This document shows, in pieces, positions 36,727-41,629 of a DNA stretch of 64,000 nt. The stretch's first letter is position 1, and the number at the start of each line of letters is the position of its first letter. Made by a program: the position numbers and the translations under genes. Under the pieces are notes generated by a model. It was not told the origin of the DNA, searched no databases, and saw only the letters and a program-made list of their open reading frames with translations. This DNA comes from Ahrensia sp. (GTDB lineage: Bacteria; Pseudomonadota; Alphaproteobacteria; Rhizobiales; Rhizobiaceae). The stretch spans positions 62,001-126,000 of the forward strand of contig PAKZ01000026.1 of assembly GCA_002706335.1 (NCBI GenBank). Reading direction: 5' to 3'.

Positions 36727-36951
36727 GGATTGCTCAGCGAAAGTCAGTCTTTACGGGATCGATTGAATAGCGTCGTTTGCCTCGACTGTATACATCGCGG
36801 CCGGCGACAACTGTTTTTCCAGCCCTTTGCGGCCGCACAAAAAATAGACACGACGCAGGGGAAACTGCACAAAAACAGGGTCCAGACCGCCGATCAGCGC
36901 CCGAAATCGCAGGTTTTTGCCGTCTGGCACAACCCTTGCTTCGAAATTTGC
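36727..36951. other. Divergent promoter region upstream of the guanidine riboswitch
   Basis: The 225 bases between the reductase start and the riboswitch must contain the rightward promoter of the guanidine operon and the leftward reductase promoter. No gene seen; I could not assign -35/-10 boxes confidently. Confidence 0.4.
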
Positions 36952-37063
36952 GTGCAGAGGCGCCTAGGGTTCCGGTTCCGCGAGGGATGTCTGGTCCGAG
37001 AGGTGCAAGCCGCCGGAAAACGGCGGTGACACGGCGGGGCAAAATCCCGGGAGACAACTGCAC
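36952..37063 (+). promoter_or_regulatory. Guanidine-I riboswitch (ykkC class)
   Basis: Leader RNA that binds guanidinium and turns on export, import or degradation genes. All conserved blocks of the class are present in order: CTAGGGTTCCG at 36964-36974, CTGGTCCGAGAG at 36991-37002, a variable hairpin (GCCGCCG/CGGCGG around 37010-37026), and ACACGG then CAAAATCCCGGGAGA up to 37054. P1 is closed by GTGCAG (36952-36957) with CTGCAC (37058-37063). The following 86 bases to the ATG contain AGGTT/AACCT and GCGC/GCGC pairing arms. They also contain GCCTC (37080-37084), which could pair with GAGGC at the ribosome-binding site (37139-37143), so control may be translational; that mechanism is inferred. 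Confidence 0.93.
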
Positions 37064-37149
37064 AGGTTTGCGCGCGCAGGCCTCCTCCCGGATGTGCGCT
37101 CGAACCTCCCATAAACGCGGTGCGACCGCGAAACTTGAGAGGCAGGAGC

Positions 37150-38211
37150 ATGATCAGGAAATTCGTCACCACCCTCGGACTTGCGGCAACGCTGGCCTTG
37201 CCGCTTTCGGCGACCGGAGCGGCCGCGGAAGAGAAGACAGAATTCAGCGTTTGCTGGTCGATCTATGTCGGCTGGATGCCGTGGGGCTATCTCTCCGATT
37301 CCGGCATCATGAAGAAATGGGCCGACAAATACGGCATCTCGGTCGATATCGTGCAGATCAACGACTATGTCGAATCCATCAACCAGTACACGGCCGGCCA
37401 GTATGACGGCTGTTCGATGACCAACATGGACGCGCTATCGATCCCCGCCGGCGGGGGCGTCGACACCACAGCGCTCATCGTCGGCGACTATTCCAACGGC
37501 AACGACGCCATCATCCTGAAGGACAAGACCGAACTGGCCGACATCGCGGGCCAGAACGTCAATCTCGTCGAATTGTCGGTCTCGCATTACCTGCTAGCCC
37601 GCGCGCTCGACTCTGTCGGCCTGTCGGAAAGGGACCTGACAGTGGTCAACACTTCCGACGCCGACATGATCGCGGCCTATGGTACGGATGACGTCACCGC
37701 CGTGGTCACCTGGAACCCGCTGGTATCCGAAATCCTCGAGCAGCCCAACGCCACCAAGGTGTTCGACAGCGCCGGCATCCCGGGCGAGATCATCGACGCC
37801 ATGATGGTCAATACCGAGACCCTGGCCGACAATCCGGCCTTCGGCAAGGCGCTTGTCGGCGCGTGGTACGAGGTGATGGGGCTGATGGCCTCGGGCGACG
37901 AAGAAGCGCTGACCGCCATGGCGGAAGCGTCCGGCACGGACCTCGCCGGATACAAGGCGCAGCTCGATTCCACCGAGATGTTCTTTGCGCCCGCCGATGC
38001 GGTGACCTTCACCGAATCCGGCGACCTGCCGAAGACGATGCAATTCGTCGCCGAGTTCCTGTTCGACAAGGGCATTCTCGGTGAAGGCGCGCCGAGCCCG
38101 GAATTCGTCGGCGTCTCATTCCCCGACGGCTCCGTCTATGGCGACGAGGGCAACGTCAAGCTGCGCTTCGACACGACCTACATGCAGATGGCCGCCGACG
38201 GCGCGCTCTGA
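37150..38211 (+). CDS. Guanidine ABC importer, substrate-binding protein (NitT/TauT-like)
   Basis: A 353-aa periplasmic protein with a signal peptide (MIRKFVTTLGLAATLALPLS, cleavage after AAA). The mature start SVCWSIYVGWMPWGYL and the segment GQYDGCSMTNMDALSIPAGGG are typical of binding proteins often named urea carboxylase-related, which accompany guanidine riboswitches. A GGCAGGAG site precedes the ATG. It sits directly behind the guanidine-I riboswitch as first gene of a five-gene operon, so guanidinium is the likely ligand; this relies on context. Confidence 0.85.
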   Translation: MIRKFVTTLGLAATLALPLSATGAAAEEKTEFSVCWSIYVGWMPWGYLSDSGIMKKWADKYGISVDIVQINDYVESINQYTAGQYDGCSMTNMDALSIPAGGGVDTTALIVGDYSNGNDAIILKDKTELADIAGQNVNLVELSVSHYLLARALDSVGLSERDLTVVNTSDADMIAAYGTDDVTAVVTWNPLVSEILEQPNATKVFDSAGIPGEIIDAMMVNTETLADNPAFGKALVGAWYEVMGLMASGDEEALTAMAEASGTDLAGYKAQLDSTEMFFAPADAVTFTESGDLPKTMQFVAEFLFDKGILGEGAPSPEFVGVSFPDGSVYGDEGNVKLRFDTTYMQMAADGAL

Positions 38212-38262
38212 TCGTCAACCACGCCCGGCGCTTCGCGCGCCGGGCCTATCTCTCGGTCAGCC

Positions 38263-39084
38263 ATGCGCCTCATCAACCGTAAGCCGTCTCGCGCCACCGC
38301 TTTCTTTCTGGGTATGGCGCCCTTCGTCGCCGCGATTGTCGCCTATGCCGTCGCCAGCCATTACCGACGGCTGGACAATCCGGCAGACAAGTTGTTGCCG
38401 TCGCTGCCGGACATGGCCGCCGCCTTCTCGCGCATGGCGTTCACGCCCGATCGGCGTTCAGGCGACCTCCTGTTGTGGATGGACACGTTCGACAGCCTCG
38501 AACGGCTTGCCGCCGGAATGGGCGTCGCAGTGGTTCTGGCGCTGTCGCTTGGCATTCTGATCGGCTTCATCCCGAATGCGCGATCGTCGCTGGCACCCTT
38601 CATCGCCACCTTCTCGCTGATCCCGCCGATCACCATCCTGCCGATCCTGTTCATCATTTTCGGTCTCGGCGAACTCTCCAAGATCATGCTGATCGTCGTC
38701 GGCACCGCGCCGGTGATGATCCGCTCCGTTGCGCAGTCGGTGATGGAGATCCCGCGCGAACTGATCATCAAGGCCGAGACGCTCGGCGCATCCGTCTGGC
38801 AGATGATGGTGCGCGTGGTCCTTCCGCAGATCCTGCCCAAGCTGATCACCGCGATCCGGCTCGGCCTCGTGCCCGCGTGGATTTTCCTGATCTCGGCGGA
38901 GGCGATCGCCTCGACCTCCGGTCTTGGCTACCGCATCTTCCTCGTCCGGCGCTATCTCGCGATGGATGTCATCCTGCCCTATGTGGTCTGGATCACGCTG
39001 CTCGCCTTCATCCTCGACCGGTTGTTGTTGATGGCCTCGCGCCGCGCCTTCCCCTGGCACCATTTGCAGGGGGAAAGCCTGTGA
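38263..39084 (+). CDS. Guanidine ABC importer, permease
   Basis: Inner-membrane permease, 273 aa, of the NitT/TauT (SsuC-like) type with about six helices. The ATPase-coupling EAA loop reads ELIIKAETLGASVWQMMVRVVLPQILPKL (key residues Glu-Thr-Leu-Gly-Ala, about 166-190). It begins 51 bases after the binding-protein gene, and its TGA overlaps the GTG start of the ATPase (GTGA). Confidence 0.87.
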   Translation: MRLINRKPSRATAFFLGMAPFVAAIVAYAVASHYRRLDNPADKLLPSLPDMAAAFSRMAFTPDRRSGDLLLWMDTFDSLERLAAGMGVAVVLALSLGILIGFIPNARSSLAPFIATFSLIPPITILPILFIIFGLGELSKIMLIVVGTAPVMIRSVAQSVMEIPRELIIKAETLGASVWQMMVRVVLPQILPKLITAIRLGLVPAWIFLISAEAIASTSGLGYRIFLVRRYLAMDVILPYVVWITLLAFILDRLLLMASRRAFPWHHLQGESL

Positions 39085-39887
39085 GCACGCAACCGAAAGT
39101 CTCCGTACGCAACGTCGCGAAGATCTATGACGGCACGGTCGTGCTGGAGCGGCTCGATCTCGATATCGCGGCGGGCGCGCTTTGCACCATTGTCGGCGCG
39201 TCGAGCTGCGGCAAGTCGACCTTTCTTCGCATGCTGCTGTCGCAGGAAGTCCCCTCGCGCGGCGAGATCCTGATCGACGGTGAGAAACTGCCGCCCGAGC
39301 CGACACCGGATCGTGGCATCGTCTTCCAGCGCTATTCCGTCTTCCCGCATCTGACGGTCGAGGAAAACCTGATGCTGTCGGCTGAGTTCGACGCCGCCCC
39401 GCTGACCGGGCGGCTGTTCGGATCGAAACGCGCCGCTGCTCGCGACGCGGTGACCGAGACATTGGAGCGCATCGGGCTGGCGCAGGCGCGCAAACGCTAT
39501 CCCACGCAACTGTCGGGCGGCATGCAACAGCGCCTCGCTATCGCGCAGGCGCTGTTGAAGAAGCCGAAGATCCTGCTGCTCGACGAGCCGTTCGGCGCGC
39601 TTGATCCCGGCATCCGCGCCGACATGCAGGAGTTGCTGATCGAACTCTGGAAGGAGCTGTCGATGACCATCTTCATGGTCACACACGACATCCATGAGGC
39701 CTTCAAGCTCGGCACGCGCGTTCTCGTCTTCGACAAGATCCGCCATGATCCGGACGCGCCGGACCGCTGGGGCGCGACCATCACCTACGACCTGCCGCTC
39801 GATCGCGCGGGCGTGCAGACCATCCCCGATGCCGGGGCCCTTTTCGCTCTCAAGAACACAACAAGAGGAGACGTCCCCCATGCGTGA
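39081..39887 (+). CDS. Guanidine ABC importer, ATP-binding protein
   Basis: A 268-aa ATPase of the NitT/TauT family. Walker A is GASSCGKST (39-47), the Q-loop is VFQRYSVFPHLTV, the signature LSGGMQQRLAIAQ, Walker B ILLLDEPFGALD and the switch VTHDIHEAF. It starts with GTG, translationally coupled to the permease, and its last codons overlap the start of the hydrolase by eight bases. Confidence 0.88.
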   Translation: MSTQPKVSVRNVAKIYDGTVVLERLDLDIAAGALCTIVGASSCGKSTFLRMLLSQEVPSRGEILIDGEKLPPEPTPDRGIVFQRYSVFPHLTVEENLMLSAEFDAAPLTGRLFGSKRAAARDAVTETLERIGLAQARKRYPTQLSGGMQQRLAIAQALLKKPKILLLDEPFGALDPGIRADMQELLIELWKELSMTIFMVTHDIHEAFKLGTRVLVFDKIRHDPDAPDRWGATITYDLPLDRAGVQTIPDAGALFALKNTTRGDVPHA

Positions 39888-41145
39888 CACTTTTTCGCGC
39901 GGCCCCGAGCGCGCCAGCCGCAAGGCCGGCCTGACGAACCGCGCCGAACCGGCGCGCTACCACCATCCGGATTTCGACAAGCTGAACATGCGCGGCTGGA
40001 AGGCGGCCGAAAAGGAAGGCCCCCTTCCCTCGGCGGCCTGGCAGAAGGAACGCCAATGGGCGCTGCGCATGGGGCTGACCGGCTCGGATTCGCTCGAAGA
40101 CAAGACCATCCCGACTTTCTCGCGCGGGGAACTGCCGCATTATGCCGGCATCAACACCTTCCTGAAGGCGCCCTACATCGAAGACGTGACCAAGGTCGGC
40201 GCCTATGACGCGGCGATCATCGGCATTCCCTTCGACGGCGGCACGACCTACCGGCCCGGCACCCGTTTCGGCCCGCAGGGGGTGCGCAAGATCTCGGCGC
40301 TCTACACCCCCTACAATTACGAGATGGGCATCGACCTGCGCGAGCAGATGACTCTCTGCGATGTCGGCGACGTGTTCACCATCCCCGCCAATATCGAGAA
40401 GACTTTCGACCAGATCAGCCGTGCCGTCAGCCACGTCGCATCCTCCGGCGCCCTGCCGATCATGATCGGCGGCGACCATTCGATCGGCTTTCCCTGCGTG
40501 CGCGGCATTGCGCAATGCACCTCGAAGCGCATCGGCATCGTCCATTTCGACCGGCATATCGACATCCAGGAAAAGGATCTCGACGAGCGCATGCACACGA
40601 CGCCGTGGTTCCACGCTACCGACCTTGCAAATGTTCCGGCGGTCAATCTCGTGCAGGTCGGCATCGGCGGCTGGCAGGTTCCGCGTGAGGGCGTGCAGGA
40701 AGCGCGCAAGCGCAACACCAACATCTTCACCATGCGCGACATCGAGGAAATGGGCCTCGCCGAAACGGCAGCGCGCGCGCTGGAGCTGGCCTGGAAGGAC
40801 GCCGACGCGGTCTATATCTCGTTCGACATCGACAGCGTGGATTGCGGCTTCGTGCCCGGCACGGGCTGGCCGGAGCCCGGCGGTTTCCTGCCGCGCGAGG
40901 CGCTGGAACTGGTCTCGCTGGTCGCCGCCGAAGGCATTTGTGGGCTGGAGGTCGTCGAGGTGTCGCCGCCCTATGACACGTCGGACATCACCGCGCTTCT
41001 CGCAACCCGCGTCATCGTCGACGTGCTCGGCACGCTGGTCAGCCACGGCAAGATGGGAGCGCACAAGGGCATCATCGACAAGCCGGTGACGATCCCCGCC
41101 GGCCCGGATGTCGACGGCCAGGGATGGGGGACGAATGATGCATGA
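39880..41145 (+). CDS. gdmH: Guanidine hydrolase-like ureohydrolase (arginase/agmatinase superfamily)
   Basis: A 421-aa member of the arginase fold. The metal ligands are complete: H200 (GGDHS, 197-201), D224, H226 and D228 (HFDRHID) and D316, D318 (SFDIDSVD). About 100 residues precede the core, much longer than in agmatinase (~300 aa), as in the Ni-dependent guanidine hydrolase of Synechocystis. The Arg in place of Ala in Asp-Ala-His also differs from most agmatinases. With the guanidine-I riboswitch and importer upstream, the expected reaction is guanidine plus water to urea and ammonia. Routine annotation would probably call it agmatinase. An AGAGGAG site precedes the ATG. Confidence 0.83.
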
Positions 41146-41629
41146 CGATCACGACCATCCCCATCACGGCCACGATCATTCACACGACCATGACCACGGT
41201 CATGGCCATGCGCACCATCACCACGGGCCCGGCCACAACCACCCGCATGATCATGCGGAGCACCTGCATTCCCATGTGCATGGTGATGCGGCGAAGGAGC
41301 GGCGGGAGGAACTGCGCGTTCTCGCAACCGCCTTTCTCGACGGCTACCGCAAGGCGGACGACAAGACGTCCTTCCTGCGGGTCGCCGGCGTGCCGTTCAA
41401 ACGCATCGGCTCGGACGGGCTGGCGATGCACCTGGTCGAGACGAAGATCGAATCCAGATGGCAGCTCGGCACGGCCTCGCCGGCCTTCGGATCGCGCGAG
41501 CTCGTCTATCTGCCCTATCCCGGCGAAATGGTGACCGAGCGCGAGACGATGACCTTCACCTATGTCTCGCTGAGCGAGCGCGCCGATATCGACCTGACGG
41601 AGGTTCTGGCTCAGCGAGAGGACCGGTAG
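41135..41629 (+). CDS. Histidine-rich protein, candidate nickel chaperone for the guanidine hydrolase
   Basis: A 164-aa protein overlapping the hydrolase gene by 11 bases. The first 51 residues contain 24 histidines alternating with Asp/Gly (for example [14 protein letters not shown]), a composition seen in nickel-storing tails of HypB, UreE and SlyD. The C-terminal ~110 residues form a soluble, mixed charged domain ([54 protein letters not shown]) that I cannot assign. No HypA/HypB-like gene is in the operon. Metal delivery to the hydrolase is therefore an inference from composition, overlap and the known nickel need of guanidine hydrolase. Two adjacent ATGs (41135, 41138) are equivalent. 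Confidence 0.75.

Follow-up and report, generated by a model that had tools for sequence, protein, structure and literature searches.

How does a bacterium that takes up and hydrolyses guanidine supply the hydrolase with nickel? The question is raised by five genes behind a guanidine-I riboswitch in a 64,000-nucleotide stretch of Ahrensia sp. DNA (contig PAKZ01000026.1, positions 62,001 to 126,000; hereafter the window), where the genes of a predicted guanidine ATP-binding cassette (ABC) transporter and of a guanidine hydrolase of the GdmH type are followed by one for a small histidine-rich protein, termed here the companion. Riboswitch, transporter and GdmH together represent a known kind of system; what is novel here is the fifth gene, whose product is also the most interesting part of the operon. 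How nickel enters the guanidine hydrolase of Nitrospira has been reported as unclear. We consider it reasonably probable that the locus is a riboswitch-controlled guanidine assimilation operon, and that the companion, from a family not yet described, is devoted to delivering or buffering nickel.

Pairing of the companion with gdmH

A scan of species genomes returned at least 579 stretches encoding some relative, the best 80 of which were kept as loci (L numbers); 79 of these were alphaproteobacterial by title, the exception being a metagenome-assembled genome titled Anaerolineae (L075); this bias is produced by the ranking itself. The companion gene lay directly 3' of gdmH in 80 of the 80, making it a concrete nickel-loading candidate for one large bacterial group. 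Upstream of gdmH, permease and ATPase genes were present in 78 loci and the binding protein gene in 76, the misses being short contigs save for L103 (Mangrovicoccus ximenensis), which carried gdmH and the companion with neither the ABC transporter nor a riboswitch match in 8 kb upstream; the companion therefore goes with the enzyme. Throughout the 3.5 kb further downstream no gene was common to more than 10 of the 80 loci, so the companion looks like the end of the operon.

The distribution of gdmH itself was patchy, with 13 of 151 same-family genomes, 11 of 337 in a class sample and 7 of 398 in a phylum sample (27 distinct gdmH genomes overall, the window's genome being counted in each sample). 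The companion adjoined gdmH in 26 of these 27, the contig ending in the 27th (G011). A companion profile matched 12 genomes of the class sample, namely the 11 with gdmH plus one decayed piece (G275), and eight of the phylum sample, namely the seven with gdmH plus a match (G535; expectation value, E, 1.9e-4; positions 5-53 of 154) that was confined to the histidine tail and put down to composition. Among 72,556 plasmid records the companion occurred in seven, the same seven alphaproteobacterial records that carry gdmH, and no intact companion without gdmH was found in the three genome samples or the plasmids. The piece in G275 stands beside genes for an ABC ATPase, an FtsX/MacB permease and a DUF3299 protein (L146, 4282-7354); a lead towards ZrgA-type zinc uptake that it offered was rejected, since the match spans some 65 residues, has a stop codon immediately upstream and shows no start in the frame displayed, and it is probably what is left of a guanidine operon since lost.

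The companion comprises 164 residues, a histidine tail (residues 1-50) preceding a conserved C-terminal domain (residues 52-164, 113 residues), with 24 histidines in the tail, a single histidine after it and no cysteine; inspection by eye revealed no signal peptide. A GHNH...HLHSH stretch stands ahead of the conserved part, LHSH or MHSH being present in 73 of the 80 companions and at least six histidines within a 30-residue segment of the N-terminal part in 77. Within the domain, D76, P116 and P129 were invariant in 61 aligned sequences, five comparisons gave ratios of nonsynonymous to synonymous substitution rates (dN/dS) of 0.09-0.39, and modelling of residues 52-164 alone with AlphaFold2 yielded a mean predicted local distance difference test (pLDDT) score of 93.2. 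The window protein had no Pfam or NCBIfam match, comparison of the companion profile with PDB sequences gave nothing convincing, and a literature search, which did not cover supplementary material, found no mention of the family. To judge from sequence, the companion would belong to a protein family that has yet to be described.

Hydrolase, transporter and riboswitch

Table 1. Elements of the guanidine operon and its leader, with positions in the window.
Feature	Position	Strand	Basis
Guanidine-I riboswitch aptamer (RF00442)	36953..37055	+	Rfam covariance match, 80.5 bits
CTCCCGG, candidate switching strand	37085..37091	+	Complementary to CCGGGAG, aptamer 3' side
ABC transporter substrate-binding protein, predicted for guanidine	37150..38211	+	NCBIfam TIGR03427
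ABC transporter permease	38263..39084	+	Pfam BPD_transp_1, 75.8 bits
ABC transporter ATPase, GTG start	39081..39887	+	Pfam ABC_tran, 111.9 bits
Guanidine hydrolase, GdmH type, predicted nickel enzyme	39880..41145	+	Similarity to 7esr/7oi1, 9fek; tree
Histidine-rich companion, no named family	41135..41629	+	Adjoins gdmH in 80/80 loci

Sequence kinship assigns the hydrolase to the GdmH type, which makes it a predicted nickel enzyme. Its score against Pfam Arginase was 261.8 bits (cut-off 22), and it fell under the cut-off of all five NCBIfam models listed for it, with 168.1 bits against 174.3 for the agmatinase model TIGR01230. The solved guanidinases of Synechocystis (7esr/7oi1; 543 bits, 230/348 residues identical, 66.1%) and Nitrospira inopinata (9fek; 528 bits, 219/355 residues identical, 61.7%) were its closest solved relatives, the next being a guanidinobutyrase at 177 bits. 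A tree of 18 rows, with 3nio, 3nip, 1gq6 and a paralogue from the window's own genome (L002) as outgroup, united the hydrolase with 7esr and 9fek in a 14-row clade with support 100/100, leaving guanidinobutyrase, guanidinopropionase, proclavaminate amidinohydrolase and the paralogue outside; only the GdmH clade of this tree was used because the outgroup branches are long, that of L002 being the longest at 9.3 changes per column.

The motifs FDRHxD (in place of DAHxD) and TGWPEPGG are shared by the hydrolase and the guanidinases, the Embleya row of the clade being without the exact TGWPEPGG string. Ahead of the Pfam Arginase match stand 109 residues, of which residues 42-109 align with Synechocystis GdmH, and we take such an N-terminal extension in front of the arginase fold to be diagnostic of GdmH. 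By alignment, the tryptophan of TGWPEPGG (W330) would be equivalent to Trp305 of the Synechocystis enzyme and Trp313 of that from N. inopinata, a residue that presumably narrows the guanidinase pocket. The numbers of these two residues are those of the structural account (PMC11410670). Scores, motifs and tree together ruled out an agmatinase or guanidinobutyrase reading of the hydrolase, and the clustering inside agmatinases that would have counted against the sequence-only reading was not observed.

All five genes lie on the same strand downstream of the riboswitch, with an overlap at each of the three junctions from gene 2 to gene 5, and the end points proposed from sequence alone for these overlapping or closely spaced genes proved correct within one base. 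The arrangement goes beyond chance because the gene order recurs in relatives, and the riboswitch along with it. The binding protein exceeded the cut-off of TIGR03427 (551.5 against 333.9 bits), a model named 'putative urea ABC transporter substrate-binding protein', and we take that family name to derive from urea carboxylase neighbourhoods; guanidine would be the substrate of the transporter. In Limimaricola variabilis, the one annotated alphaproteobacterial relative examined, the automatic names predicted beforehand (urea-carboxylase-type transporter plus agmatinase) hold; the genes are labelled 'putative urea ABC transporter substrate-binding protein' and 'agmatinase family protein', and the fifth gene 'hypothetical protein'. 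Genes so filed are now marked as a guanidine assimilation operon.

An Rfam search of the entire window detected one guanidine-I riboswitch, over the gathering score of 63 (E 9.6e-13) and full length (model positions 1-107 of 107), which bears out its earlier description as complete. The strand CTCCCGG downstream is a candidate for expression-platform switching; it recurred in 15 of 39 leaders examined, that of the window included, and in none of the Rhodobacterales-type leaders. No U-run terminator was visible by eye in the window leader, of which no terminator scan was made. Flanking GTGCAG (5') and CTGCAC (3') elements (36951-37063) could lengthen the outer helix past the Rfam model, and similar pairs occur in many relatives' leaders too. 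A riboswitch model derived from 30 leaders (that of the window plus those of 29 loci) matched 73 of the 80 loci, 44 of them outside the model-building set, with L109 cut by a contig end and L070 weak at 49.5 bits; of the seven misses, five were contigs that start inside or just before the operon, and L061 and L103 were true misses. Where a simple pattern had missed eight loci, the Rfam model exceeded its cut-off in five, the others being L041, L045 and L103.

Roseibium/Labrenzia, Thalassospira, Sinorhizobium and many Rhodobacterales are among the bacteria with relatives of the operon; Sinorhizobium fredii NGR234 carries gdmH and the companion on pNGR234b. A relative of gdmH with 53-60% identity was present in four actinobacterial records (two Rubrobacter, Nonomuraea and Embleya). 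On a plasmid of Rubrobacter indicoceani (L112, 8055-15472) the gdmH-like gene stands beside a sodium:solute symporter, formamidase, ureA-C and ureF, a different operon plan leading from guanidine to ammonia and without the companion. In three loci (L048, 4641-6387; L062, 4541-6344; L063, 5333-6382) a 2-oxoglutarate/Fe(II) dioxygenase gene, identified by Pfam DIOX_N and 2OG-FeII_Oxy, lies between those of the binding protein and the permease, L067 being assigned likewise from gene spacing alone; in L048 and L062 a protein without a Pfam match follows. This setup recalls the methylguanidine hydroxylase/lyase pair MgdH-MgdL, reported in Vreelandella in the part of the source at hand (PMC12508155), and may here feed GdmH instead of guanidine carboxylase.

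Nickel supply and the competing explanations

Published excerpts state that GdmH of Synechocystis requires two Ni2+-loading accessory proteins (PMC12186494, PMC11271267), and that riboswitch-linked operons of GdmH and its analogues often include hypA and hypB (PMC8390497). Pfam and NCBIfam searches found no HypA/HypB-like accessory gene among the five of the window operon. Whole-genome Pfam searches, which carry the HypA argument because HypA is short, covered 23 of the 27 gdmH genomes (four found in the phylum sample alone were left out) and detected HypA in six, made up of 3/13 and 3/10 with one of the latter three a partial match; it was absent from 17. G058, G146 and G275, which are without gdmH, were excluded from this count, G146 having HypA. 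A tblastn search with HypA of the window's own genome gave no match in the 80 loci and six plasmid loci, while the query recovered itself in the control, and the core of its HypB gave a single match (L061, 28% identity), taken for a putative UreG-type GTPase. Both HypA and HypB of the window's genome sit in a [NiFe] hydrogenase cluster, this HypB (L024, 8610-9839) having a long histidine-rich N-terminal stretch of its own. Urease alpha was present in 22 of the 23 genomes, so urea has an outlet.

In the scheme we favour, guanidine would bind the riboswitch and so switch on the operon, the ABC transporter would import guanidine, GdmH would split it to urea and ammonium, and the genome's urease would free two further ammonia from the urea. 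The histidine tail of the companion would gather Ni2+, and the folded domain would dock on GdmH or pass the metal on; with the companion serving GdmH in this manner, a HypA/HypB-type pair as in Synechocystis would not be needed. What the sequences themselves contribute is the riboswitch, the gene order, the kinship to GdmH, the co-occurrence of companion and gdmH, the lack of HypA in 17 of 23 genomes and the urease in 22 of 23. For a histidine-rich protein standing where hypA and hypB would stand, the best interpretation is that it takes over their function. The more specific proposal, that Alphaproteobacteria rely on one protein of an undescribed family as a GTPase-free nickel metallochaperone, produced only together with GdmH under the riboswitch and replacing the HypA/HypB-type pair, is offered tentatively, its chances falling slightly short of even.

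Several points weigh against a nickel-delivery or nickel-buffering role. Enzyme activity, and nickel binding and delivery by the companion, are predictions. The domain model had no significant fold match in the PDB and none that would tie it to a known nickel protein, and the sole Pfam signal in a set of 12 family members was a weak match of three to the zinc-uptake family ZrgA (best E 0.017). The histidine tail is nearly missing from three of the 80 companions (L074, L075, L081), in which the domain is kept, and it is therefore not indispensable. HypA is, after all, carried by six of the 23 gdmH genomes, and since it was counted in gdmH genomes alone, its absence from the remainder means no more than that HypA is dispensable. 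Urease accessory proteins, which are probably also present in the urease-bearing gdmH genomes, could load GdmH instead. A profile search of the flanks of the four actinobacterial gdmH-like loci found no companion, and the N. inopinata guanidinase likewise does without one in the part of the report available, which found no nickel chaperones either (PMC11410670); GdmH as such thus does not need the companion.

The urease and HypA counts would also suit an operon of the kind described in which the fifth protein just stores or buffers nickel or zinc and GdmH is loaded by urease accessory proteins or HypA/HypB, an explanation that we regard as unlikely while giving it real weight. The operon's lack of a GTPase, the 24 histidines of the tail and the weak ZrgA matches favour it too, but simple storage would scarcely call for a conserved domain of 113 residues, with the dN/dS values given above, that is tied to gdmH alone, and the nearly tail-less members have retained precisely that domain. 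The fact that the domain, and not the tail, is kept in every member (L074, L075 and L081 included), together with the strict pairing with gdmH, agrees with a protein that partners GdmH in a structural or regulatory capacity (stabiliser, allosteric subunit or inhibitor) and whose histidine tail is secondary. This we find distinctly improbable: it leaves the clustered histidines of 77 of the 80 companions unexplained, and the accessible text reports homohexamers for those GdmH-type enzymes that have been solved (PMC11410670).

Action of the hydrolase on agmatine or another substituted guanidine, with the transporter bringing in urea or an amine, would fit the names given to the operon's Limimaricola relatives, but is opposed by the guanidine riboswitch upstream, by the GdmH clade and pocket tryptophan, by the gap between the guanidinase and guanidinobutyrase scores, and by the excerpted report that an extract with Synechocystis Sll1077 degraded guanidine, not agmatine (PMC8390497); we consider it highly improbable.

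Comparison with known systems

Known histidine-rich nickel proteins include HypB with its histidine tail, UreE, SlyD and CooJ, and the companion resembles them in its long histidine-rich stretch and in the tie of its gene to a nickel enzyme. It differs from them in having no GTPase domain and no sequence or fold match to them that could be found.

The guanidinase locus of comammox Nitrospira has in common with the window a guanidine-I riboswitch and a GdmH-type enzyme; it employs an APC permease where the window has an ABC transporter, and the available portion of its description reports that no nickel chaperones were found and makes no mention of a histidine-rich companion (PMC11410670). The metformin hydrolase operon (MefH or MetCaCb) likewise places a nickel ureohydrolase beside nickel accessory genes, and differs in its heteromeric enzyme, its substrate and its chaperones of the HypA/HypB type (PMC11399263, PMC11271267, in the parts accessible). 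Co-expression of the latter was required for activation in one study (PMC11399263); in another, accessory co-expression had no effect in extracts, yet the knockout did not grow on metformin (PMC11271267).

The operon of Synechocystis sp. PCC 6803 that contains gdmH (sll1077) shares with the window the guanidine-I riboswitch, the ABC transporter and an orthologous hydrolase. There, according to the portions of the reports at hand, the HypA/HypB-like pair GhaA/GhaB is found, where the window has one histidine-rich protein of another family (PMC12186494, PMC8390497, PMC11271267). If our reading is true, the companion would add a hitherto undescribed family to the nickel accessory proteins and would represent a third way of loading GdmH with nickel, beside GhaA/GhaB of Synechocystis and the route of comammox Nitrospira.

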